64,000 nucleotides of DNA, taken from assembly GCA_017936375.1 (NCBI GenBank), contig JAGBFR010000020.1, positions 1-64,000 on the forward strand. Reading direction: 5' to 3'. The notes beneath the pieces were generated by a model. The model ran no database searches. It saw only the letters and a list, made by a program, of their open reading frames with translations, and had not been told where the DNA came from. Source of the stretch: Clostridia bacterium. Its GTDB lineage: Bacteria > Bacillota > Clostridia > Christensenellales > Aristaeellaceae. Positions 6,341 to 59,190 of this stretch are shown in pieces (position 1 is the first letter of the stretch; each line of letters opens with the position of its first letter). The translations under genes were made by a program, and so were the position numbers.

Positions 6341-6369
6341 TTGACTTCAATGCGCTGCTGTGCTATACT
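6341..6369 (+). promoter_or_regulatory. SigA-type promoter of the T-box operon
   Basis: TTGACT (6341-6346) and TATACT (6364-6369) are separated by 17 bp. Transcription would start near 6376, just ahead of the T-box leader. Confidence 0.8.
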
Positions 6370-6390
6370 ACAGAAAATTTCAACAGCAAA

Positions 6391-6658
6391 GACTGTAACG
6401 GAAGTATGCTTCTCTCGGGTAGCTTCAGAGAGCCGGTGGCTGGTGTGAACCGGTGCGGAAGAGAGCAAGCAGTCTCACTCCTGAGTTGACTCTGCGAAGG
6501 ACACTGGTTTTGAGTAGTGGAGTACGGTCGCCCCGTTATCGGCTTTGGGCTTGACTTGAGCCCGAGAGTGACAGTATGCCGTAAGGCTGCTGTAATCAAG
6601 GTGGTACCGCGAATGGCTTATTCGTCCTTGAAGCAATGGCTTCAGGGACTTTTTTTTA
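6391..6658 (+). ncRNA. T-box riboswitch, leucine class (specifier CUC inferred)
   Basis: The leader carries the hallmarks of a T-box that senses uncharged tRNA. They are an AGTA loop-E motif at 6403-6406, the distal Stem I pattern near 6427-6452, the T-box AAGGTGGTACCGCG at 6598-6611, and a terminator (6624-6634 with 6639-6649, then eight T). Stem GCTTCTCTC (6408-6416) pairs with 6461-6470, placing AGTCTCAC in the specifier loop. CTC at 6474-6476 followed by A fits leucine. UGGU at 6602-6605 would pair with an ACCA tRNA end, matching the discriminator A of leucine tRNA and arguing against serine. The next gene keeps a leucine-binding LeuA domain, which agrees. Confidence 0.85.
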
Positions 6659-6694
6659 CCCAATCAGATATTCATGAATAAGAGGTGCAGCAAA

Positions 6695-8110
6695 ATGGAA
6701 CAGATCAGAATCAGCGATGTGACCATGAAGCAGTCCGGCAGGGAATTTGCGCTCTCCTTTAAGGAGAAGATTGAGATTCCGAAGCTGCTGGACAAGCTGG
6801 GTGTATCTGTGATTGAGCTAGAGCCTATTGTGCAGCCGAAGATCGATATGCTTCGCATCAAATCCGTAGCATCCACGGTGAAGAACAGCATTGTCGCTGT
6901 TCCCGTGCAGCTGACGCAGGAGAGCGTCGACGCGACGTGGAATGCGCTTAAGGCAGCGAAGCGGCCGCGTCTGCAGGTCTGCGCGTCCATCAGCACGGTG
7001 CAGATGGAGTATCTCTTTAATAAGAAGCCGGCGGCCATGCTCAAAGCGATTGAGGAGAGCGTCGCTGCCTGCCGCGCGAAGACGCAGGATGTCGAGTTCA
7101 TCGCGGACGACGCGACGCGCAGCGATCCCGCTTTCCTGTACAAGGCGATTCAGACCGCGATTGACGCCGGCGCAGGGACGGTTACTGTCTGCGATGTGAC
7201 GGGCGCGATCCTCCCGGATGAGCTGACGGCGTTCCTTGATTCTCTCTACGAGAATGTCGCCGGGCTGAAGGACGTCGTGCTCGGCATGTCCTGTTCCAAT
7301 GAGCTGGCGATGGCCGACGCCTGCGCGATTGCGGCGATCCGCCACGGCGTGCGCGAGATCAAGGCGGCTGCGTACCCGATCAACCGGATCTCCCTGTCCA
7401 ACGTCTCCCGCCTGCTGGCGGCGAAGGGCGATACGTGGGGCGTGAACTGCTCCGTGCGCACGGTGGAGATGAACCGCATCGTCAAGCAGATCGCATGGAT
7501 GTGCGAGACGCAGCGCAGCAAGAATTCTCCCTTTGACAACGGTGTGCAGGAGATCGGCGAGGAAGTGTCCCTCACCAGCCATGACACCATGGGCACCGTG
7601 CTCAAAGCCGTTGAAAAGCTGGGCTATGACCTGAGCGAAGAGGACGGCGCGCGCGTGTGGGAGGCCTTCAAGGTCATCGCAGCGCGCAGGGATGTCATCA
7701 CCAACCGCGAATTGGATACCATCGTGGCCTCTGCTGCGATGCAGGTGCCCTCCACGTATGTGCTCACCAGCTACAGCATCACGGCGAGCAATATCTCTTC
7801 CTCTATGGCGCATATGCAGATGGAGAAGCACGGGCAGAAGCTGGAGGGCGTTGCGCTGGGCGACGGCCCGGTGGACGCCGCGTTCCTCGCCATTGAGAAT
7901 ATCGTGGGCTGCCACTATGAGCTCGACGACTTCCAGATCCGCTCCGTCACCGAGGGCCGCGAGGCCATGGGCGAGACGGTTGTACGCCTGCGTTCGGGCG
8001 GCAAGCTCTACTCCGGCCGCGGCACGTCGACGGACATCGTCGGCTCCAGCATTCAGGCGTACATCAACGCGCTGAACAAGATCACTTATGAGGAGGCGGA
8101 AATGGCATGA
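6695..8110 (+). CDS. LeuA-like protein with lost catalytic motifs and a retained leucine-sensing domain
   Basis: A 471-residue homologue of 2-isopropylmalate synthase. The TIM-barrel part aligns by its pattern (IEIPKLLDKLGVSVIEL), but the catalytic LRDGEQ motif reads MKQSGR (residues 11-16), and the metal-binding HxH reads MSCSNE (198-203). The GIGERAGN region has become YPINRISLSN. Ordinary IPMS activity is therefore unlikely. The C-terminal LeuA dimer/regulatory domain is well kept: GDGPVDAAF near 389, an AVTEG-like RSVTEG, and GRGTSTDIVG near 443. I chose the ATG at 6695, which follows AGAGGTG; the in-frame ATG at 6674 lacks this. It is first in an operon after a leucine T-box and overlaps the next gene by four bases. 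It may be a leucine sensor or a changed enzyme. Confidence 0.8.
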   Translation: MEQIRISDVTMKQSGREFALSFKEKIEIPKLLDKLGVSVIELEPIVQPKIDMLRIKSVASTVKNSIVAVPVQLTQESVDATWNALKAAKRPRLQVCASISTVQMEYLFNKKPAAMLKAIEESVAACRAKTQDVEFIADDATRSDPAFLYKAIQTAIDAGAGTVTVCDVTGAILPDELTAFLDSLYENVAGLKDVVLGMSCSNELAMADACAIAAIRHGVREIKAAAYPINRISLSNVSRLLAAKGDTWGVNCSVRTVEMNRIVKQIAWMCETQRSKNSPFDNGVQEIGEEVSLTSHDTMGTVLKAVEKLGYDLSEEDGARVWEAFKVIAARRDVITNRELDTIVASAAMQVPSTYVLTSYSITASNISSSMAHMQMEKHGQKLEGVALGDGPVDAAFLAIENIVGCHYELDDFQIRSVTEGREAMGETVVRLRSGGKLYSGRGTSTDIVGSSIQAYINALNKITYEEAEMA

Positions 8111-10623
8111 AGCTTTCCTTTTCGACCAGAGGCTGGTCCCATCTGAGCTGGGAGGAGTATCTGGAGATCGGCGAAACCATGGATTTTGCCGGTATTGAGG
8201 TCTATAACCTGCCCAAGTTCCCTGAGATGATGGAGCGCAGCGCGCCCTTCCATAAGTACAATATGGCGGCGACGGCCCGCCAGCTGCGGGAGAAGAAGCT
8301 GGCGATCCCCTGCTTTGATACATCCTGCGATATAGCCTCCGATGAGGAGAATCCCGTTCCCGTGATCCGCAGCCTGATCCAGACGGCGAAGCAGATGCAG
8401 GTGCCGTATGTGGCGGTTGTCGCGCTGCACGATCAGGAGGATCTCGTCCGCAGCCGTCTTGCCGAGCTGCTCGGCGATGCGGAAGAGGCAGACGTCACCA
8501 TCCTCATCAAGACCAGCGGCATCTATGCCAATACCGGCCGCCTGCGCGCGCTGATGGACGATTTCGCCTGCGACCAGCTGGCCGCGCTGTGGGATATCCA
8601 TCATCCCTACCGCGACTGCGGCGAGAGCGCGGATACGACCATCCGCAACCTCGGCGCGTATGTCCGTCATGTGCACCTGCGCGACTCTGACGATAAGGAC
8701 ACCTATAACCTGATCGGCGAGGGCACGCTGCCCGTCGATGAGATGATGCGTGCGCTCTCTTCCATCGACTATGATGGCTTCATCTCCCTCGAGTGGAAGG
8801 TGGAGTGGATGGAGGATCTGCCCGAGTACGAGGTCATCTTCCCACACTTCGTCAACTACATGAGCCGCTTTGAAAAGACCCGCGGCAAGAAGAAGGCGCT
8901 CTATCCCAACCACGACGGCACCGGCCAGTACGTCTGGAAGAAGGACGAGCTGGTCAACCTCACGTTCTCTCAGGTGCTTGACCGCATGGTCGAGGAATTC
9001 CCCGATCAGTACGCCTTCAAGTACACGACGCTCGACTATGTGCGCACATACGAAGAGTTCCGCGAGGATGTGGACAACTTCGCCCGCGCGCTGATCTCTC
9101 TGGGCGTGAAGGCGGGCATGAAGGTCTCCGTCTGGGCGACGAATGTGCCCGCGTGGTACATCGCCTTCTGGGCGACGGTCAAGATCGGCGCCGTGCTGGT
9201 GACGGTCAATACCGCGTACAAGAGCCATGAGGCGGATTATCTGCTGCGTCAGTCGGATACGCACACGCTGATCATGATCGAATCCTGCCTTGATTCCAAC
9301 TACAGGCAGATCATCAACGAGCTTTGCCCGGAGATCGCATCCAGCAAGCCGGGCAAGCCGCTGCACTGCAAGCGTCTGCCGTTCCTGCGCAATGTCATCA
9401 CCGTGGGCTTTAAGCAGCCCGGCTGCCTGACCTTTGACGAGGCGATGGAGCGCGCGGAGCTCGTCGCCCCGGAGGAGCTCGCCCGCATGGCGGCGCGCGT
9501 CCGCCCGGACGATGTGTGCAATATGCAGTACACCTCCGGCACGACCGGCTTCCCCAAGGGCGTCATGCTCACGCACTATAACGTCGTCAATAACGGCAAG
9601 TGCATCGGCGACCGCATGGGCCTCTCCACGGCGGACCGCATGATGATCCAGGTGCCGATGTTCCATTGCTTCGGCATGGTGCTTTCCATGACGTCCTCGA
9701 TGACGCATGGCGCAACGGTCTGCCCAATGCCGTATTTCTCGGCCAAGTCCTCTCTGGCGTGCATCAATCAGGAGCGGATTACCTGCTTCAATGGCGTGCC
9801 GACGATGTTCATCGCCATGTTCAACCATGAGGATTACAGGAAGACCAATTTCTCCTACATGCGCACGGGCATCATGGCCGGCGCGGGCTGCCCGCCCGAG
9901 CTGATGCGCCGCGCAGCCGATCCCAATGAGATGAACATGCGCGGCATCGTCAGCGTCTATGGCCAGACGGAGTCTGCGCCCGGCAGCACGATGTCTGCAT
10001 GGACGGATCCGCTTGATCTGCGCACGGATACCGTCGGCTACAACTTCCCGCATGTTGAGACCAAGGTCATCAATCCCGAGACGGGAGAGATCGTGCCCGA
10101 TGGCGAGAACGGCGAGTTCTGCTCCCGCGGCTATAACATCATGAAGGGCTACTACAAGATGCCGGATGCGACGCGGGATACCATCGACGCCGACGGCTGG
10201 CTCCATTCCGGAGACCTTGCCTGCCGGAATTCGGACGGTACATTCCGCATCACGGGCCGTCTCAAGGACATGATCATCCGCGGCGGCGAGAACATCTATC
10301 CCAAGGAGATCGAGGAGTTCATCTACACCCATCCCAGCGTGCGCGACGTGCAGGTCATCGGTGTGCCGGATAAGCGCTACGGCGAGGAGGCCATGGCCTG
10401 CGTCATCCTCAAGGATGGCTGCAGCATGACCGTGGAGGAGATGCACGACTACATCGCCGCCAGCATGGCGCGCCACAAGGTGCCCCGGTACATCGAATTC
10501 GTGGATTCCTTCCCGATGAACGCGGCGGGCAAGGTGCTCAAGTACAAGATGCGCGAGGAGGCTTCCCAGCGTCTCGGGCTCGTCAATGCGGCGGGCATCG
10601 ATACCGCGAAGGGGCAGCAGTGA
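8107..10623 (+). CDS. Fusion of a sugar-isomerase-like TIM barrel and an AMP-forming acyl-CoA ligase
   Basis: One 838-residue frame with two enzymes. Residues 1 to about 250 are a xylose-isomerase-like/AP-endonuclease-2 TIM barrel: WDIHHPY, HVHLRDSD and SLEWK carry likely metal ligands. Where a Glu ligand is often found the sequence reads LIKTSG, so the metal site may be altered. After a linker, residues from about 290 are an acyl/aryl-CoA ligase: P-loop YTSGTTGFPKG near 475, YGQTES near 618, a GDL hinge near 702, GRLKDMIIRGGENIYPKE, and the catalytic Lys in AAGKVLK near 810. The acid substrate is unknown. The start overlaps the previous stop (ATGA). No internal ribosome binding site is seen at the junction, so the product should be a true fusion. 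Confidence 0.85.
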   Translation: MKLSFSTRGWSHLSWEEYLEIGETMDFAGIEVYNLPKFPEMMERSAPFHKYNMAATARQLREKKLAIPCFDTSCDIASDEENPVPVIRSLIQTAKQMQVPYVAVVALHDQEDLVRSRLAELLGDAEEADVTILIKTSGIYANTGRLRALMDDFACDQLAALWDIHHPYRDCGESADTTIRNLGAYVRHVHLRDSDDKDTYNLIGEGTLPVDEMMRALSSIDYDGFISLEWKVEWMEDLPEYEVIFPHFVNYMSRFEKTRGKKKALYPNHDGTGQYVWKKDELVNLTFSQVLDRMVEEFPDQYAFKYTTLDYVRTYEEFREDVDNFARALISLGVKAGMKVSVWATNVPAWYIAFWATVKIGAVLVTVNTAYKSHEADYLLRQSDTHTLIMIESCLDSNYRQIINELCPEIASSKPGKPLHCKRLPFLRNVITVGFKQPGCLTFDEAMERAELVAPEELARMAARVRPDDVCNMQYTSGTTGFPKGVMLTHYNVVNNGKCIGDRMGLSTADRMMIQVPMFHCFGMVLSMTSSMTHGATVCPMPYFSAKSSLACINQERITCFNGVPTMFIAMFNHEDYRKTNFSYMRTGIMAGAGCPPELMRRAADPNEMNMRGIVSVYGQTESAPGSTMSAWTDPLDLRTDTVGYNFPHVETKVINPETGEIVPDGENGEFCSRGYNIMKGYYKMPDATRDTIDADGWLHSGDLACRNSDGTFRITGRLKDMIIRGGENIYPKEIEEFIYTHPSVRDVQVIGVPDKRYGEEAMACVILKDGCSMTVEEMHDYIAASMARHKVPRYIEFVDSFPMNAAGKVLKYKMREEASQRLGLVNAAGIDTAKGQQ

Positions 10624-10657
10624 TCGCAGACCGATTATCAACCAGAGGTGACTGAAT

Positions 10658-13600
10658 ATGCAGAAAACATACATGACCATGGACGGCAACGAAGCGGCCG
10701 CCTATATGGCTTATCCCTTTACGGAGGTGGCGGCGATCTACCCGATCACGCCGTCCTCGCCCATGGCGGGCCTGACGGACGCGTGGTCCGCCAAGGGGAG
10801 GAAGAATGTCTTCGGCCAGACGGTGACGCTGACGGAGATGCAGTCCGAGGCAGGCGCTGTCACGGCTGTGCACGGCGCGCTGCAGACCGGCTCGCTGGCG
10901 ACGACCTACACATCCTCTCAGGGCCTCATGCTGATGGTGCCCGTCCTTTACCGCATTGCCGGCGAGCGCCTGCCCGCCGTGCTGCATGTGGCTTCCCGCA
11001 CGGTCGGCACGCATGCGATGAGCATCTTTGGCGATCACAGCGACGTGATGGCCTGCCGCCAGACTGGCTTTGCCATGCTCAGCGCGGGCAGCGTGCAGGA
11101 GGTGGCGGATCTGGCGCCGGTGGCGCATCTGAGCGCCATCAAAGGCAGGATTCCCTTCATGCACTTCTTTGACGGATTCAGGACGTCGCATGAGATCAAC
11201 AAGATCGAGATTCCGGACCAGGAGAAGATCGCGGCGCTGATCGACCAGGATGCGCTCAAGGCCTTCCGCGACGGCGCGCTCAATCCCGAGCACCCGATGC
11301 TGCGCAATACCGTGCAGAACGGCGATGTCTACTTCCAGGTCCGCGAGGCGAACAACACCTTCTACGCGGAGCTGCCGGATATCGTCGAGGGCTATCTGGC
11401 CGAGATGAAGACCATCACCGGCCGCGAGTATCACGCCATTAATTACTACGGCGCGCCGGATGCGACCGATGTGATCATCGCCATGGGCTCCGTGAGCGGC
11501 GTGGCGCGCAGTGTCGTGGAGAAGATGACGGCAGAGGGCAGGAAGGTCGGCTTCCTGCAGGTGCATCTGTACCGTCCGTTCTCCGCGAAGCACTTCCTCG
11601 CCGCGCTGCCGGAGACGGTGGAGCGCATCGCCGTCATGGATCGCTGCAAGGCGATGGGCGCGGCGGGCGAGCCGCTCTTTGAGGACGTCTGCGGCGTGCT
11701 GATGAACAGCGAACGCAGCATCCGCGTGATCGGCGGCCGCTACGGCCTGAGCTCCAAGGACACCGATCCGTCCCAGATCGTCGCGGTCTTTGAGAATCTG
11801 GCGTCCGACAAGCCCGTGCGCAGCTTTACCGTCGGCATCAATGACGACGTGACGCATCTGTCTCTGCCGCTCAAGCCCTATCATGAGGAGACGGAGGGCA
11901 TGGTCCGCTGCAAGTTCTGGGGCCTCGGCGGCGACGGTACGGTCGGCGCGAATCACAACACCGTGCGCATCATCAACGACAACACGGACAAGTTCGCGCA
12001 GGCGTACTTTGAGTACGATGCGAAGAAGTCCTTCGGCGTGACGAAGTCCCACCTGCGCTTCAGCGACAAGCCGATCGCCAGCTCCTACTATGTCAAGCAG
12101 GCGGATTTCGTCGCCTGCCACAATCAGAGCTATATCGGCCAGTATGACATGGTGGGCGAGGTCGTCGAGGGCGGCGTCTTCCTGCTCAACTGCAGCTGGA
12201 CGCAGGCGGAGCTGGAGGCGCATCTCCCGGCGGAGGTTCGCCGCCAGATCGCGCAGAAGCACATTCAGTTCTATGTGATCGACGCCAATAAGATTGCGCT
12301 TGAGCTCGGTCTGGGCAGCCATACCAATACGGTGCTGCAGGCGGCGTTCTTCAAGCTCATGGAGGTCATCCCGACCGAGCGCGCGCTGGAAATGATCAAA
12401 GATGCCGTCCGTAAGACGTACTTCGCCAAGGGCGACGACGTCGTCTCCCGCAATGTGGCGGCGATTGACGCGGGCGCGGCGCAGCTGGTGAAGGTTGACG
12501 TCCCGGCGAGCTGGGCGCAGGCGGAGGAAGCATGCGCGAAGGCGGAGGAGGATAAGCCCGCCGTCGTGCGCAACCTGCTTGAGCCGATCAACAGGCAGAA
12601 GGGCGACGACCTGCCGGTCAGCGCCTTCAAGGGCTATGAGGACGGCCGCATTGACATGGGCCTCACTGCGTTTGAAAAGCGCGGCATCGCCCTGAGCGTG
12701 CCCAAGTGGGACGCGGCGAAGTGCATCCAGTGCAACCGCTGTGCGCTGGTCTGCCCGCATGCCGTCATCCGCCCGTATCTGCTCAATGACGAGGAGAAGG
12801 AAAACGCGCCCGAGGGCTTTGAGACCATCCCGGCCAATGGCGCGGCGAAGGGCCTGCACTTCACCATGCAGGTGTCCGCCTATGACTGCACGGGCTGCGG
12901 CAGCTGTGTGGCCTGCTGCCCGGCGAAGGAGAAGGCGCTGACCATGGAGCCGGTCGTCCTCAATGATGAGAAGAAGGCGCTGTGGGAGTACGGCCTTTCC
13001 CTCTCCGACAAGGGCGATATTTTCCCGGTGTATACGATCAAGGGCAGCCAGTTCCGCCAGCCGCTGATCGAGTTCTCTGCGGCGTGTGCCGGCTGCGGCG
13101 AGACGCCGTATGCCAAGCTGCTCACCCAGCTCTTCGGCGACCGCGTCTACTGGGCGAATGCCACGGGCTGCTCCCAGGCGTGGGGCTCCCCGATGCCGGG
13201 AATTCCGTACACGACCAACAAGCGCGGCTTCGGCCCGGCGTGGACGAACAGCCTCTTTGAAAACAACGCCGAGATGGAGATGGGCATGTTCCTCTCCGTC
13301 AGGCAGCAGCGTGCCAAGCAGAAGATGCTCGTCGAGGCCTATGCGGAAGAGACGGGCAGCGAGGCGGCAAAGGCGTGGCTTGACGCCTTTGACGATTTCG
13401 ATGCCTCCCGCCGGACGACGGATGCGCTGATCGCCGAGCTGGAGGGTTGTGATTCTCCGCTGGCCAGCCAGATTCTGGAGCGCAAGGATCAGCTGGCGAA
13501 GAAGTGCTTCTGGATGTTCGGTGGCGACGGCTGGGCGTATGACATCGGCTTTGGCGGTCTGGATCACGTGATCGCCAGCGGCGAGGACATCAATGTCTTC

Positions 13601-14137
13601 GTCATCGACACCGAGGTCTACTCCAACACCGGCGGCCAGAGCTCCAAGGCGACGCCGCTGGGTGCTGTGGCGCAGTTTGCCTCCGCGGGCAAGCGCAGCC
13701 GCAAGAAGGAGCTCGGCGCGATCTTCCAGACCTACGGTAATGTCTATGTCGCGCAGGTCGCCATGGGCGCGGATCCGAATCAGCTCATCAAAGCGCTGCG
13801 AGAGGCGGAGCAGCACAAGGGCCCGTCCGTCGTCGTGGCATACACGCCCTGCGTGCAGCACGGCATCAAGGTCGGCATGCGCAATGTGCAGAGTGAGATG
13901 AAGCGTGCGGTCGACGCGGGCTACTGGACGCTCTACCGCTATAACCCGGACGCGGAGAAGCCGATGACGGTCGACTCCGGCAGGCCGACGATGGACTATG
14001 AGGAGTTCCTCGATGGCGAGGTCCGCTATGCGGCGCTCAAGCGCACGTTCCCCGAGTATGCGCAGACGCTCTTTAAGATCGCCAAGGAAGACTCCATTGC
14101 GAGGTACGAAAAGTACAAGGCGATGGAGGAGCGGTAA
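10658..14137 (+). CDS. nifJ: Pyruvate:ferredoxin (flavodoxin) oxidoreductase
   Basis: A full-length 1159-residue single-chain PFOR that interconverts pyruvate plus CoA with acetyl-CoA, CO2 and reduced ferredoxin. The N-terminal domain has YPITPSSPMA, and the CoA and gamma-type domains follow. Two ferredoxin-like 4Fe-4S motifs are present (CIQCNRCALVCP near 689 and CTGCGSCVACCP near 744). The TPP domain has CAGCGETPY, the GGDGWAYDIG signature and SNTGGQSS. It begins 34 bases after the ligase fusion with no terminator between, preceded by AGAGGTGA. It probably shares the leucine T-box transcript, an unexpected control for PFOR, unless an internal promoter drives it. Confidence 0.95.
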   Translation: MQKTYMTMDGNEAAAYMAYPFTEVAAIYPITPSSPMAGLTDAWSAKGRKNVFGQTVTLTEMQSEAGAVTAVHGALQTGSLATTYTSSQGLMLMVPVLYRIAGERLPAVLHVASRTVGTHAMSIFGDHSDVMACRQTGFAMLSAGSVQEVADLAPVAHLSAIKGRIPFMHFFDGFRTSHEINKIEIPDQEKIAALIDQDALKAFRDGALNPEHPMLRNTVQNGDVYFQVREANNTFYAELPDIVEGYLAEMKTITGREYHAINYYGAPDATDVIIAMGSVSGVARSVVEKMTAEGRKVGFLQVHLYRPFSAKHFLAALPETVERIAVMDRCKAMGAAGEPLFEDVCGVLMNSERSIRVIGGRYGLSSKDTDPSQIVAVFENLASDKPVRSFTVGINDDVTHLSLPLKPYHEETEGMVRCKFWGLGGDGTVGANHNTVRIINDNTDKFAQAYFEYDAKKSFGVTKSHLRFSDKPIASSYYVKQADFVACHNQSYIGQYDMVGEVVEGGVFLLNCSWTQAELEAHLPAEVRRQIAQKHIQFYVIDANKIALELGLGSHTNTVLQAAFFKLMEVIPTERALEMIKDAVRKTYFAKGDDVVSRNVAAIDAGAAQLVKVDVPASWAQAEEACAKAEEDKPAVVRNLLEPINRQKGDDLPVSAFKGYEDGRIDMGLTAFEKRGIALSVPKWDAAKCIQCNRCALVCPHAVIRPYLLNDEEKENAPEGFETIPANGAAKGLHFTMQVSAYDCTGCGSCVACCPAKEKALTMEPVVLNDEKKALWEYGLSLSDKGDIFPVYTIKGSQFRQPLIEFSAACAGCGETPYAKLLTQLFGDRVYWANATGCSQAWGSPMPGIPYTTNKRGFGPAWTNSLFENNAEMEMGMFLSVRQQRAKQKMLVEAYAEETGSEAAKAWLDAFDDFDASRRTTDALIAELEGCDSPLASQILERKDQLAKKCFWMFGGDGWAYDIGFGGLDHVIASGEDINVFVIDTEVYSNTGGQSSKATPLGAVAQFASAGKRSRKKELGAIFQTYGNVYVAQVAMGADPNQLIKALREAEQHKGPSVVVAYTPCVQHGIKVGMRNVQSEMKRAVDAGYWTLYRYNPDAEKPMTVDSGRPTMDYEEFLDGEVRYAALKRTFPEYAQTLFKIAKEDSIARYEKYKAMEER

Positions 14138-14262: not shown

Positions 14263-15795
14263 TTACGCCTTCGTCAGTCCGCAGAGCAGCGCGATCAGCG
14301 GCGAATTCCAGTAGATGCAGATCTCATTGGTGGAGTAGCTGTCGTGGTCGTCGACGAAGCTCTTGCCCGCAGGCTGGCCCTGCAGGTACTTCTGCGCGGC
14401 GGGGTCCATCATGCCGCTGGCAGGGCCGCCGGAGAGCATGCCGGGCTGTGCGGCGCTCTGCGCGACGCTCGGCCTGTGGTGCGGATGGAGCACCTGCTGC
14501 GTGCCAAAGCCGGTCACATAGCAGTAGCTGACGGGGTTGACGCCCAGCAGATAGTGCAGCTGCTTCTCGGCTGCGATGCGGTAGGCCTCATTGCCCGTGA
14601 GCAGCAGCGCTTGATAGAGGATTATGCCGTGGTTGGAGACGTCCATGTTGCTGCCCCAGGGGAGGGTTTCGGTCATGGTGATGCCGTAGCCGTTGATGCG
14701 GCTCATCAGCCGATCCGCCTCGGCGATGATCCACTCGCGGCAGATTTCGCCCGCCTCGCCGGGCAGGTCAAGGCCCTCGATGGCGCAGTAGCCGCGCACA
14801 TCGGCCCAGCCCAGCGGCGCAGCGCTGCGGTCGATGGCGGCAAGGGCTTCCTTCGCGGCGGCGAGGTAGCGTGCCTCGTCCGTGGTGAGCGCCAGCTCAA
14901 TATGCGCCCAGAGACGCTCGTCCTCGTCGGTGACGTCGTCATATTCGCCGGTGCGGATGTCGGCAGGGTTCCTAAAGAGCATGGGGCCGTTCTCCGCGAG
15001 GAAATCCCACGCGCGCACGGCGGCCTCCAGCATGCGGCCGGCGAAGGCTGCGTCGATCTCCTTGTAATAGCGGCTGGCCATCGCCATGCAGGCGGCGAAG
15101 TCGCCCGTTGCCGTCGTGGAGACGGGGCAGACGATCAGCTCGTCCGTGTCCTCCTCGGGCATGATCATGCCGCAGAAGAGGGCGGTGGTGACCTTGTGAT
15201 AGACGCCGCCGTCCTCGCGCTGCATCTTGAGCATCCATTCAAGCTCCCAGCGCGCCTCGTCCATCAGCTGCGTGAGCCCCGGCGTGATGCCGCTTTCATT
15301 CCAGCGGCGGGCGATGAGCAAGTCGGCGACGGTCTTTGCCGCGGGGACAATGTAGCGGCCGTAATCGCCCGCATCGTGCCAGCCGCCGGAGACGTCGATG
15401 CGCTCCTGCGTGCCGTAGATCCGCGCGGGGGTCATGTGGCAGGCGGGGTGGGCATATGCGCCGGCTTCGGCACCGAGCGCGCCGCCGCAGCGCTGCAGAT
15501 AGAGCGTATCCAGCAGCGCGGTCAGACAGGCGGCATAGGGGGCGTCTGAAACGGCGAAGGGATAGGAGACCTCGTCGCCGCAGCGCAGGGTATAGACGCC
15601 GGGCACAGTGAGGGCGGAGAAATCTGCCTCGGAGAGGCTGTCGCCCCAGAGCTCACAGGTCTTTTTGACAGGCACGGAGAGGACGGTCTCACCGGCGGCA
15701 TTGATGACCTCAAGCAGCGCAGCGGCGGCGTCGCGCAGTGCGGCGGTTTTTCGCATGGAGGGGGTATAGCCCAGCTGATTGATCTGAATGTTCAT
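14263..15795 (-). CDS. Glycoside hydrolase family 9 enzyme, cytoplasmic
   Basis: The 510-residue product starts with an Ig-like CelD-N-type domain (MNIQINQLGYTPSMRKTA) followed by a GH9 (alpha/alpha)6 barrel. The catalytic base region GGWHDAGDYGRY, the HPHHRPS motif and the acid-carrying DDHDSYSTNEICIYWNSP near the end are all present. No signal peptide is seen, so it probably cleaves imported oligosaccharides (cellodextrins or amino-sugar oligomers) inside the cell. The longer frame upstream lacks conserved sequence; the ATG at 15795 begins the family's usual N-terminus. It is a single gene. Confidence 0.85.
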   Translation of the reverse strand: MNIQINQLGYTPSMRKTAALRDAAAALLEVINAAGETVLSVPVKKTCELWGDSLSEADFSALTVPGVYTLRCGDEVSYPFAVSDAPYAACLTALLDTLYLQRCGGALGAEAGAYAHPACHMTPARIYGTQERIDVSGGWHDAGDYGRYIVPAAKTVADLLIARRWNESGITPGLTQLMDEARWELEWMLKMQREDGGVYHKVTTALFCGMIMPEEDTDELIVCPVSTTATGDFAACMAMASRYYKEIDAAFAGRMLEAAVRAWDFLAENGPMLFRNPADIRTGEYDDVTDEDERLWAHIELALTTDEARYLAAAKEALAAIDRSAAPLGWADVRGYCAIEGLDLPGEAGEICREWIIAEADRLMSRINGYGITMTETLPWGSNMDVSNHGIILYQALLLTGNEAYRIAAEKQLHYLLGVNPVSYCYVTGFGTQQVLHPHHRPSVAQSAAQPGMLSGGPASGMMDPAAQKYLQGQPAGKSFVDDHDSYSTNEICIYWNSPLIALLCGLTKA

Positions 15796-15966
15796 GCCAT
15801 GTTCCTCAATTCTTGATGTGATGGATGACGGAGCCATACAAATGTTGCTAAAAGCATTATAGCATTGACGTATGGATCGGGCAAGGAATAAACGCTTATG
15901 CCGGGTAGAAAAGGTTTTCGGTTGCGAAGATTCGGCAAAAACGAGGCGCATAGACGATTGACTGCC

Positions 15967-58847: not shown

Positions 58848-59190
58848 TGTTTGTGAGGCTGCCGGGCGGCCGCGCGCCAAAAGGTGTGAGGAAAGTCCGA
58901 GCTCCATAGGGCAGAGTGCCGGGTAACACCCGGCGGGGGCGACCCCAGGGAAAGTGCAACAGAGAGATACCGCATACCTCGTGTATGTAAGGGTGGAAAG
59001 GTGAGGTAAGAGCTCACCCGCGGCCTGGCGACTTGCCCGCGATGTAAACCCCACTCGGAGCAAGAAACGAAAGAGCGTTTGAGACGGCCCGTCAAGCTCT
59101 CAGGATTTCGCTTGAACCCATCGGTAACGATGGGTCTAGATAGATGACCGCCAATTACAGAACTCGGCTTACAGGCATCGCTCACAGACA
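58848..59190 (+). ncRNA. rnpB: RNase P RNA, A-type
   Basis: The catalytic RNA that trims tRNA 5' leaders. Conserved blocks: GAGGAAAGTCCGAGCTCC near 58887, AGGGAAAGTGCAACAGAGA, GGTAAGAGCTCACCCGC, and near the end TAGATAGATGACCGCC with ACAGAACTCGGCTTACAGG. The 5' TGTTTGTGAG pairs with the 3' CTCACAGACA, which sets the ends. The architecture is the ancestral A-type; many Bacilli have B-type, so this fits a Clostridial lineage. Confidence 0.95.

Follow-up and report, generated by a model that had tools for sequence, protein, structure and literature searches.

A leucine T-box operon with a degenerate LeuA, an acyl-CoA ligase fusion and a PFOR-family enzyme: a probable route from isovalerate to leucine

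Papers of the 1960s reportedly described branched-chain volatile fatty acids as growth factors of ruminococci, and the work of Allison (1962, 1966) is said to concern, in rumen microbiology, the incorporation of isovalerate into leucine and the isovalerate carboxylation pathway. The ilv-leu operon of Bacillus subtilis is reportedly under T-box control with a CUC specifier. Here we describe an operon from a 64,000-nucleotide stretch of a Clostridia bacterium (assembly GCA_017936375.1, contig JAGBFR010000020.1, positions 1 to 64,000), analysed as a whole and called the window below, in which a leucine T-box leader precedes genes for a LeuA-like protein, a TIM-barrel/acyl-CoA ligase fusion and an enzyme of the pyruvate:ferredoxin oxidoreductase (PFOR) family. 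Like the B. subtilis operon, this unit places what are probably leucine biosynthesis genes under a leucine T-box; the enzymes differ. With the isovalerate carboxylation pathway the unit, as we interpret it, shares substrate, product, CO2 addition and gut habitat.

The accessible part of PMC7356843, which cites Allison and co-workers (1962, 1966), describes leucine as arising through carboxylation of isovalerate. The literature on this pathway, in the portions available, names no genes, and the window unit supplies a candidate gene set together with T-box control. Among the open-licence literature matches listed, a collection that mostly leaves out subscription papers and preprints and could therefore miss earlier work, no genes assigned to isovalerate carboxylation and no T-box control of acyl-CoA ligases were found, and in further papers the pathway's name occurs in the reference to Allison (1966); in the searchable part of the T-box survey PMC2494555, the terms ferredoxin, acyl-CoA, CoA ligase, CoA synthetase and AMP-binding are absent. 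The chemistry and the switch are thus known, and what is new is the gene set, plus, probably, a new use of a LeuA.

We propose that the unit is a leucine-responsive operon that makes leucine from isovalerate, an acid common in gut fermentation, and that the LeuA-like protein binds leucine as a partner of the ligase. On comparative sequence evidence this proposal is likely as a whole, and the pathway from isovalerate to leucine, taken alone, is very likely. In leucine shortage, uncharged tRNA-Leu would bind the T-box and transcription would pass the terminator. The ligase domain, whose motifs are intact, would then convert isovalerate, ATP and CoA to isovaleryl-CoA, isovalerate being the presumed substrate because the product is read from the leucine T-box. 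The PFOR-family enzyme would use CO2 and reduced ferredoxin to form 2-oxoisocaproate, a carboxylation step suggested by its distinct clade, its changed pocket and the presence of 2-oxoisovalerate:ferredoxin oxidoreductase (VOR) in its place elsewhere. A branched-chain aminotransferase, encoded on another contig here and linked in other genomes, would complete leucine. In the least certain step, the LeuA-like protein would bind leucine and adjust the ligase, adding a fast feedback to the slow T-box control.

The leucine leader and its distribution

The features of the operon, all on the plus strand, are as follows.

6341-6369, plus: sigma-70-like promoter, TTGACT-17-TATACT, the likely start of the leader transcript (consensus scan, 10/12, with TG ahead of the second hexamer)
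6386-6632, plus: T-box leader, RF00230 (102.6 bits against a gathering threshold of 93, E 1.6e-21)
6624-6657, plus: intrinsic terminator-like hairpin, an 11-pair stem at 6624-6649, then TTTTTTTT (eight T)
6674-8110, plus: LeuA-like protein (pseudo-isopropylmalate synthase), 478 amino acids, a degenerate HMGL barrel with a LeuA regulatory domain
8107-10623, plus: fusion of a TIM barrel (AP_endonuc_2) with an AMP-forming acyl-CoA ligase, 838 amino acids, probable isovalerate-CoA ligase
10658-14137, plus: PFOR-family 2-oxoacid:ferredoxin oxidoreductase, 1159 amino acids, with an altered pocket (M121, V219, A841), probable 2-oxoisocaproate synthase

An earlier reading of these letters, made without database searches and called the sequence-only reading here, had proposed a T-box leader with a leucine CUC specifier, a first gene that keeps the leucine domain of LeuA and has lost LRDGEQ and HxH, its overlap with a two-domain ligase fusion, and a PFOR gene 34 bases further on with no terminator between; the analyses given below bear out the coordinates and motifs that were checked.

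Both the Rfam alignment and a stem-I model (R1) place the specifier at 6474-6476 and read it as CUC, for leucine. The model was built from 12 T-boxes, 11 from the related loci described below and one from the window, whose leader it scores at 81.8 bits with CTC in the specifier column. A UGGU at 6602-6605 presumably fits a tRNA with discriminator A. The stem at 6624-6649 overlaps the T-box antiterminator on its 3' side, as alternative structures should, and the terminator would compete with the antiterminator; a free fold of the leader (z -2.0) did not recover the T-box structure and carries little weight. The consensus scan returned two promoters and two terminators against means of 2.8 and 4.6 in shuffled sequence, and these signals were therefore weighed by position alone. 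Beyond 6649 and up to 14400, the same simple scan found no promoter-like or terminator-like site on the plus strand, so that none precedes the PFOR gene, 34 nt from the end of the fusion.

The operon is flanked upstream by a divergent phosphoglucose isomerase gene and downstream by a convergent gene of glycoside hydrolase family 9, which carries a CelD_N domain and lies directly 3' of the operon on the opposite strand (14263-15951, minus). No tRNA genes were found within the 64-kb window; bacterial RNase P RNA class A is encoded at 58854-59188 (271 bits).

Relatives of the locus were collected in two sets, the best 80 of at least 488 LeuA-like relatives from named genomes and a family set of 250 genomes sampled from the window's family. 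A ruminant is named in 49 of the 80 record titles, as counted by eye, the remainder naming no host, and the records are labelled, among other names, Oscillospiraceae, Lachnospiraceae, Clostridia and Eggerthellaceae. In all 80 loci the TIM domain of the fusion adjoins the LeuA-like gene, and the ligase part is present in 76, the contigs of the other four ending first. The same adjacency occurs in 29 of 30 loci of the family set; the thirtieth lies at the end of a genome assembled as a single contig, and the fusion is found in the first bases of that contig.

The stem-I model finds 118 T-boxes across the 80 loci, with specifiers for leucine (57), isoleucine (35), valine (25) and asparagine (one, weak and truncated). 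All 57 leucine T-boxes precede the LeuA-like gene, and every T-box found before that gene reads leucine, through CUG in 33 cases, CUC in 23 and CUU in one. In the family set a T-box match was found in 26 of the 29 LeuA-like loci searched (window included), again with a leucine specifier in each (26/26). Seven fusions without an adjoining LeuA-like gene were examined (L129, L130, L131, L132, L133, L136 and L138), their TIM domain being 36-39% identical to that of the window; a T-box was found before four of the seven, each with the leucine codon CUG. The constant part is the fusion and not the LeuA-like protein.

A reversed, catabolic direction, in which leucine would be degraded to isovalerate, with 2-oxoisocaproate oxidised by PFOR or VOR and ATP gained at the ligase, draws on the general knowledge that enzymes of VOR type are reversible and are mostly known from amino acid catabolism. 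It is nevertheless very improbable, because a leucine T-box is generally understood to turn genes on in leucine shortage, which is the wrong sense for degradation, because the ligase belongs to an AMP-forming family, and because leuB is rare in genomes that carry the LeuA-like gene.

The LeuA-like protein and the ligase fusion

The LeuA-like protein shares the two-domain layout of LeuA (TIGR00973, NF002086), an HMGL barrel followed by a leucine domain (HMGL-like 109.5 bits, LeuA_dimer 102.6 bits), and LeuA is its best family match. It differs in lying below the equivalog cut-off, its best NCBIfam score being 299.6 against 532 for a 2-isopropylmalate synthase, in lacking LRDGEQ, HxH and the GERAGN region, and in adjoining a ligase gene and not leuBCD. 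No Pfam or NCBIfam model names this family as a different enzyme, such a known function having been one of the points that the sequence-only reading asked to be looked for. In the window's protein LRDGEQ is replaced by KQSGRE and HxH by S206-C-S208. Across 48 aligned members (alignment A5, made up of the window's protein and those from 47 of the 80 named loci) histidine occurs at neither HxH position (0/48), LRDGEQ is lost and the GERAGN region is gone. Alignment A1 covers 23 of the 30 family loci and alignment A6 the window plus 33; L054 (LeuA-like), L069 (ligase) and L018 were excluded from the alignments because the sequence used contains a stop.

The family profile aligns across the barrel with the solved isopropylmalate synthases 3ewb, 3rmj and 6e1j. 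Asp15, which we take to be a metal ligand, is retained in the 48 aligned sequences, and the regulatory domain's GxGxxxA motif, which presumably contacts leucine, is complete in 48/48. Mean column identity among these members is 0.68 in the barrel and 0.78 in the regulatory domain. As the LeuA-like protein pairs with the fusion, keeps the leucine domain and lacks the metal site, we lean towards the view that it is a leucine-binding partner of the ligase and may adjust its activity.

The barrel keeps the invariant residues D15, E112, Y113, D146 and R149 and a near-invariant C207, which leave room for another role or activity of the LeuA-like protein. Together with the pairing of the protein with the fusion TIM domain in 80/80 loci, they would suit a working new enzyme, the degenerate barrel catalysing a pathway reaction without the HxH metal. 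We consider this unlikely, given that both metal histidines and the GERAGN region are lost throughout the alignment, that the regulatory domain is better conserved than the barrel, and that fusions behind leucine T-boxes occur with no LeuA-like gene nearby, so that a step catalysed by this protein would not be needed everywhere. That the protein replaces LeuA in the window's organism was ruled out by the presence, on contig C10, of a LeuA of a different type in which RDGNQ and HPHND are intact; a tblastn search of this genome with the LeuA-like query had missed it.

The fusion gene starts with ATG at 8107 and overlaps the LeuA-like gene by 4 nt. Its protein comprises AP_endonuc_2 (residues 24-233), AMP-binding (292-683, 298.5 bits) and AMP-binding_C (734-809, 64.6 bits) domains. 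The motif YTSGTTGFPKG and K809, which we take to be the catalytic lysine of the AMP-forming ligase family, are invariant across 34 aligned fusion sequences, and pairwise identity is lower in the TIM domain than in the ligase domain. The ligase domain is probably an isovalerate-CoA ligase, a substrate assignment drawn from the T-box and the context only. An amidohydrolase gene follows the fusion in a few loci (a cluster of four), as at L079:12903-13721.

Two sister classes of ligase, ligI and ligV, follow the other T-boxes. Isoleucine T-boxes lead to ligI in 32 of 35 cases, the exceptions being two with no ligase match and one with ligV, and valine T-boxes lead to ligV in 25 of 25. One representative of each class matches the short branched-chain acyl-CoA synthetase MbcS best, with 428 and 443 bits, below the cut-off of 850; the window ligase has PRK12583 as its best NCBIfam match instead, and this too lies below its cut-off. 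In the part of PMC10026030 available, MbcS is described as activating 2-methylbutyrate and isobutyrate selectively and isovalerate poorly, and the leucine arm would accordingly have its own ligase family. The isoleucine and valine T-box ligases that were examined (L092:13283-15565 and L079:1709-3997) combine an N-terminal helix-turn-helix, a cupin domain and an acyl-CoA ligase in a single polypeptide and might act as transcriptional regulators as well.

MbcS is the named protein closest to the isoleucine and valine ligases, and in Staphylococcus aureus it has its role in the synthesis of fatty acids (PMC10026030, same portion); on that model the ligase might instead feed branched-chain fatty acid synthesis from isovalerate, with leucine merely as a signal. 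We give this alternative almost no credence, as the linked VOR, PFOR and aminotransferase genes would have no evident role in it.

The oxidoreductases and the direction to leucine

In related loci the place of PFOR is often taken by VOR. VOR subunits occur in 36 of the 80 loci and PFOR in 16, never both (0/80), and neither is seen in 28, many of which are short contigs. VorBAC is a three-subunit enzyme, unlike the operon PFOR, and none of its loci holds a PFOR; VOR and PFOR are, on these counts, alternatives, and one oxidoreductase common to all members was ruled out, each locus having VOR or PFOR, or neither in the stretch covered. A branched-chain aminotransferase accompanies 21 of the 80 loci, and the representatives of VorB and of the aminotransferase exceed their curated cut-offs. 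A MinD/ParA-like ATPase of about 234 amino acids, for which no NCBIfam match at 1e-10 was found, lies between ligase and VOR genes at L081:2446-3147 (minus strand), and its cluster is present in 33 of the 80 loci. Upstream of one branched-chain locus there is a THF riboswitch (L065:6612-6712, 74.6 bits).

The operon PFOR is a full-length match to the single-chain family TIGR02176, which includes the enzymes of Desulfovibrio africanus (DaPFOR, 1b0p) and Moorella thermoacetica (6cin), and resembles them in Thr31, Arg114 and Asn996, retained in the full-length operon copies. These copies differ in forming a clade apart from the second PFORs of their genomes and in their pocket residues Met121, Val219 and, where DaPFOR has Ile843, Ala. 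In the 12 genomes searched, other operon copies are 69-87% identical to that of the window and second copies 50-60%; a further piece in G135, 83% identical, covers, to judge from its place on the query, the end absent from the G135 operon copy, and matches at 37% or less are other oxidoreductases. In a tree that omits partial copies and duplicate loci of the same gene, the 16 full-length operon PFORs form one clade (support 100/100) apart from nine second copies. With the partial copies read separately, 16 of 19 operon PFORs (three partial copies included) have Met at site 121, against Leu in 11/11 second copies, site 219 is Val in 19/19 against Ala (seven) or His (four) in the 11 second copies, and the Ile843 site is Ala in all 17 operon PFORs that cover it against Ile in 12/12 second copies.

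According to the consulted portion of PMC5020499, DaPFOR is a pyruvate-specific enzyme with a narrow methyl pocket lined by Leu121, Ala219, Ile843, Asn996 and Met1202, and in a Sulfolobus enzyme specificity was altered when the residue corresponding to Ile843 was changed. The window's enzyme departs from the pyruvate-type pocket at three positions (Met121, Val219, Ala841) and keeps the Asn. We read its pocket as reshaped for a branched side chain, and the enzyme is probably a 2-oxoisocaproate synthase.

A different product is suggested by the family assignment. With 1687 bits in TIGR02176 against a cut-off of 911, the operon enzyme is called a pyruvate oxidoreductase far above the cut-off, and this score, along with an ilvB-like gene, ketol-acid reductoisomerase (KARI), leuA, leuC, leuD and leuB in the window's genome, would agree with a route in which acetate, activated by the ligase, is carboxylated as acetyl-CoA by PFOR, the resulting pyruvate entering ordinary de novo leucine synthesis. 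Such a route is improbable. The window's genome already has a second PFOR, found as two halves on two contigs, with the usual Leu, Ala and Ile; the methyl pocket is changed in the operon PFORs; VOR stands in the place of PFOR in 36 loci; and 89 of 108 carriers of the LeuA-like gene lack both KARI and leuB over the cut-off, so that pyruvate would not reach leucine there by the usual route.

Leucine synthesis in carriers and what the operon may mean

These carriers are the 108 of the 250 family genomes with a LeuA-like match of at least 177 bits, among matches listed down to about 114 bits, so that small fragments may be missed. The gene leuB scores over its cut-off in 6/108 carriers compared with 63/142 non-carriers (Fisher p 1e-12, uncorrected for kinship), or in 8/108 compared with 65/142 when four fragments just under the cut-off are counted. 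KARI follows the same trend (18/108 against 62/142, p 5e-6). The gene leuC (TIGR02086) is over its cut-off in 94/250 genomes, including carriers that lack leuB, and was left out of the count because it separates less well. Strict exclusion between the LeuA-like gene and leuB was ruled out, as both occur in six of the 108 carriers. Among the 19 sampled genomes of the window's genus, leuB is present in 16/16 non-carriers and in one of three carriers, the window's genome. As the genomes are mostly draft assemblies, that of the window being 81% complete, single gene absences are weak. The operon route may be the only route to leucine in most carriers.

The window's genome holds all the candidate enzymes, the ligase and the PFOR in the operon and the aminotransferase on contig C56 (ilvE_II, 387 bits against a cut-off of 250); no VorB over the cut-off was found in it. 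In this genome leuA, leuC, leuD and leuB lie together on contig C10 behind a leucine T-box of their own, and further T-boxes stand before twelve other genes, named by eye from their first residues. The organism thus need not depend on the isovalerate route, and the sequence-only reading has to be corrected in that the unit here adds to de novo leucine synthesis.

Several observations weigh against the proposal, and these de novo genes are among them, the leuA being of the other type and accompanied by the ilvB-like gene and KARI; so are the conserved barrel residues of the LeuA-like protein and the family score of the PFOR. A leucine T-box was not found in 23 of the 80 loci. Nine of the loci with none found have an aminotransferase as the nearest upstream match (L067, L071, L073, L077, L084, L088, L089, L094 and L101), and two, L100 and L118, start within about 100 nt of the LeuA-like gene. 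In all six records labelled Eggerthellales, Eggerthellaceae or Coriobacteriaceae (L103, L112, L114, L118, L119, L123) the LeuA-like gene and TIM domain are present and a T-box was not found. One T-box match (L137:8170-8278, minus strand, 43 bits), before leuC in G027, has the specifier CGC, for arginine, and is perhaps misaligned. The names ligI and ligV were assigned using proteins chosen through their T-boxes, and the model's own members account for 11 of the 118 T-box matches, so that the pairing of T-box and ligase is partly built in. Of the long loci (at least 18 kb), 7/45 have neither VOR nor PFOR. As to the pocket, three of the 19 operon PFORs retain Leu121, and the change of Ala219 to Val would narrow part of it, opposite in size and unexplained by the reshaping.

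The sequence-only reading had held that leucine starvation raises a ligase and a CO2-fixing oxidoreductase that make branched-chain precursors, with the LeuA-like protein as a sensor or a new enzyme. Comparative evidence lends this support, by inference, because specifiers before the LeuA-like gene are leucine throughout, sister ligases for isoleucine and valine stand beside VOR and aminotransferase genes, VOR and PFOR alternate, and leuB is absent in most carriers. Its statement that no described system has this combination stands for the genes and their control, which are new, and fails for the chemistry, isovalerate carboxylation having long been described.

In its widest form, which we regard as evenly balanced, our proposal would be that an isopropylmalate synthase, now inactive, has become the leucine-sensing regulatory subunit of an isovalerate-CoA ligase to which it is unrelated, that leucine controls the unit twice, by T-box and by feedback, and that modular leucine, isoleucine and valine arms replace de novo branched-chain synthesis in many ruminant gut bacteria. 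If true, the ligases, oxidoreductases and amino-acid-specific switches of the rumen pathway of the 1960s would gain candidate genes. The route would become predictable from a genome, and feeding questions, such as which members of the gut community require isovalerate, isobutyrate or 2-methylbutyrate, would become testable. The LeuA-like protein would then offer a clear example of how an enzyme of biosynthesis can become the sensor of a replacement pathway.

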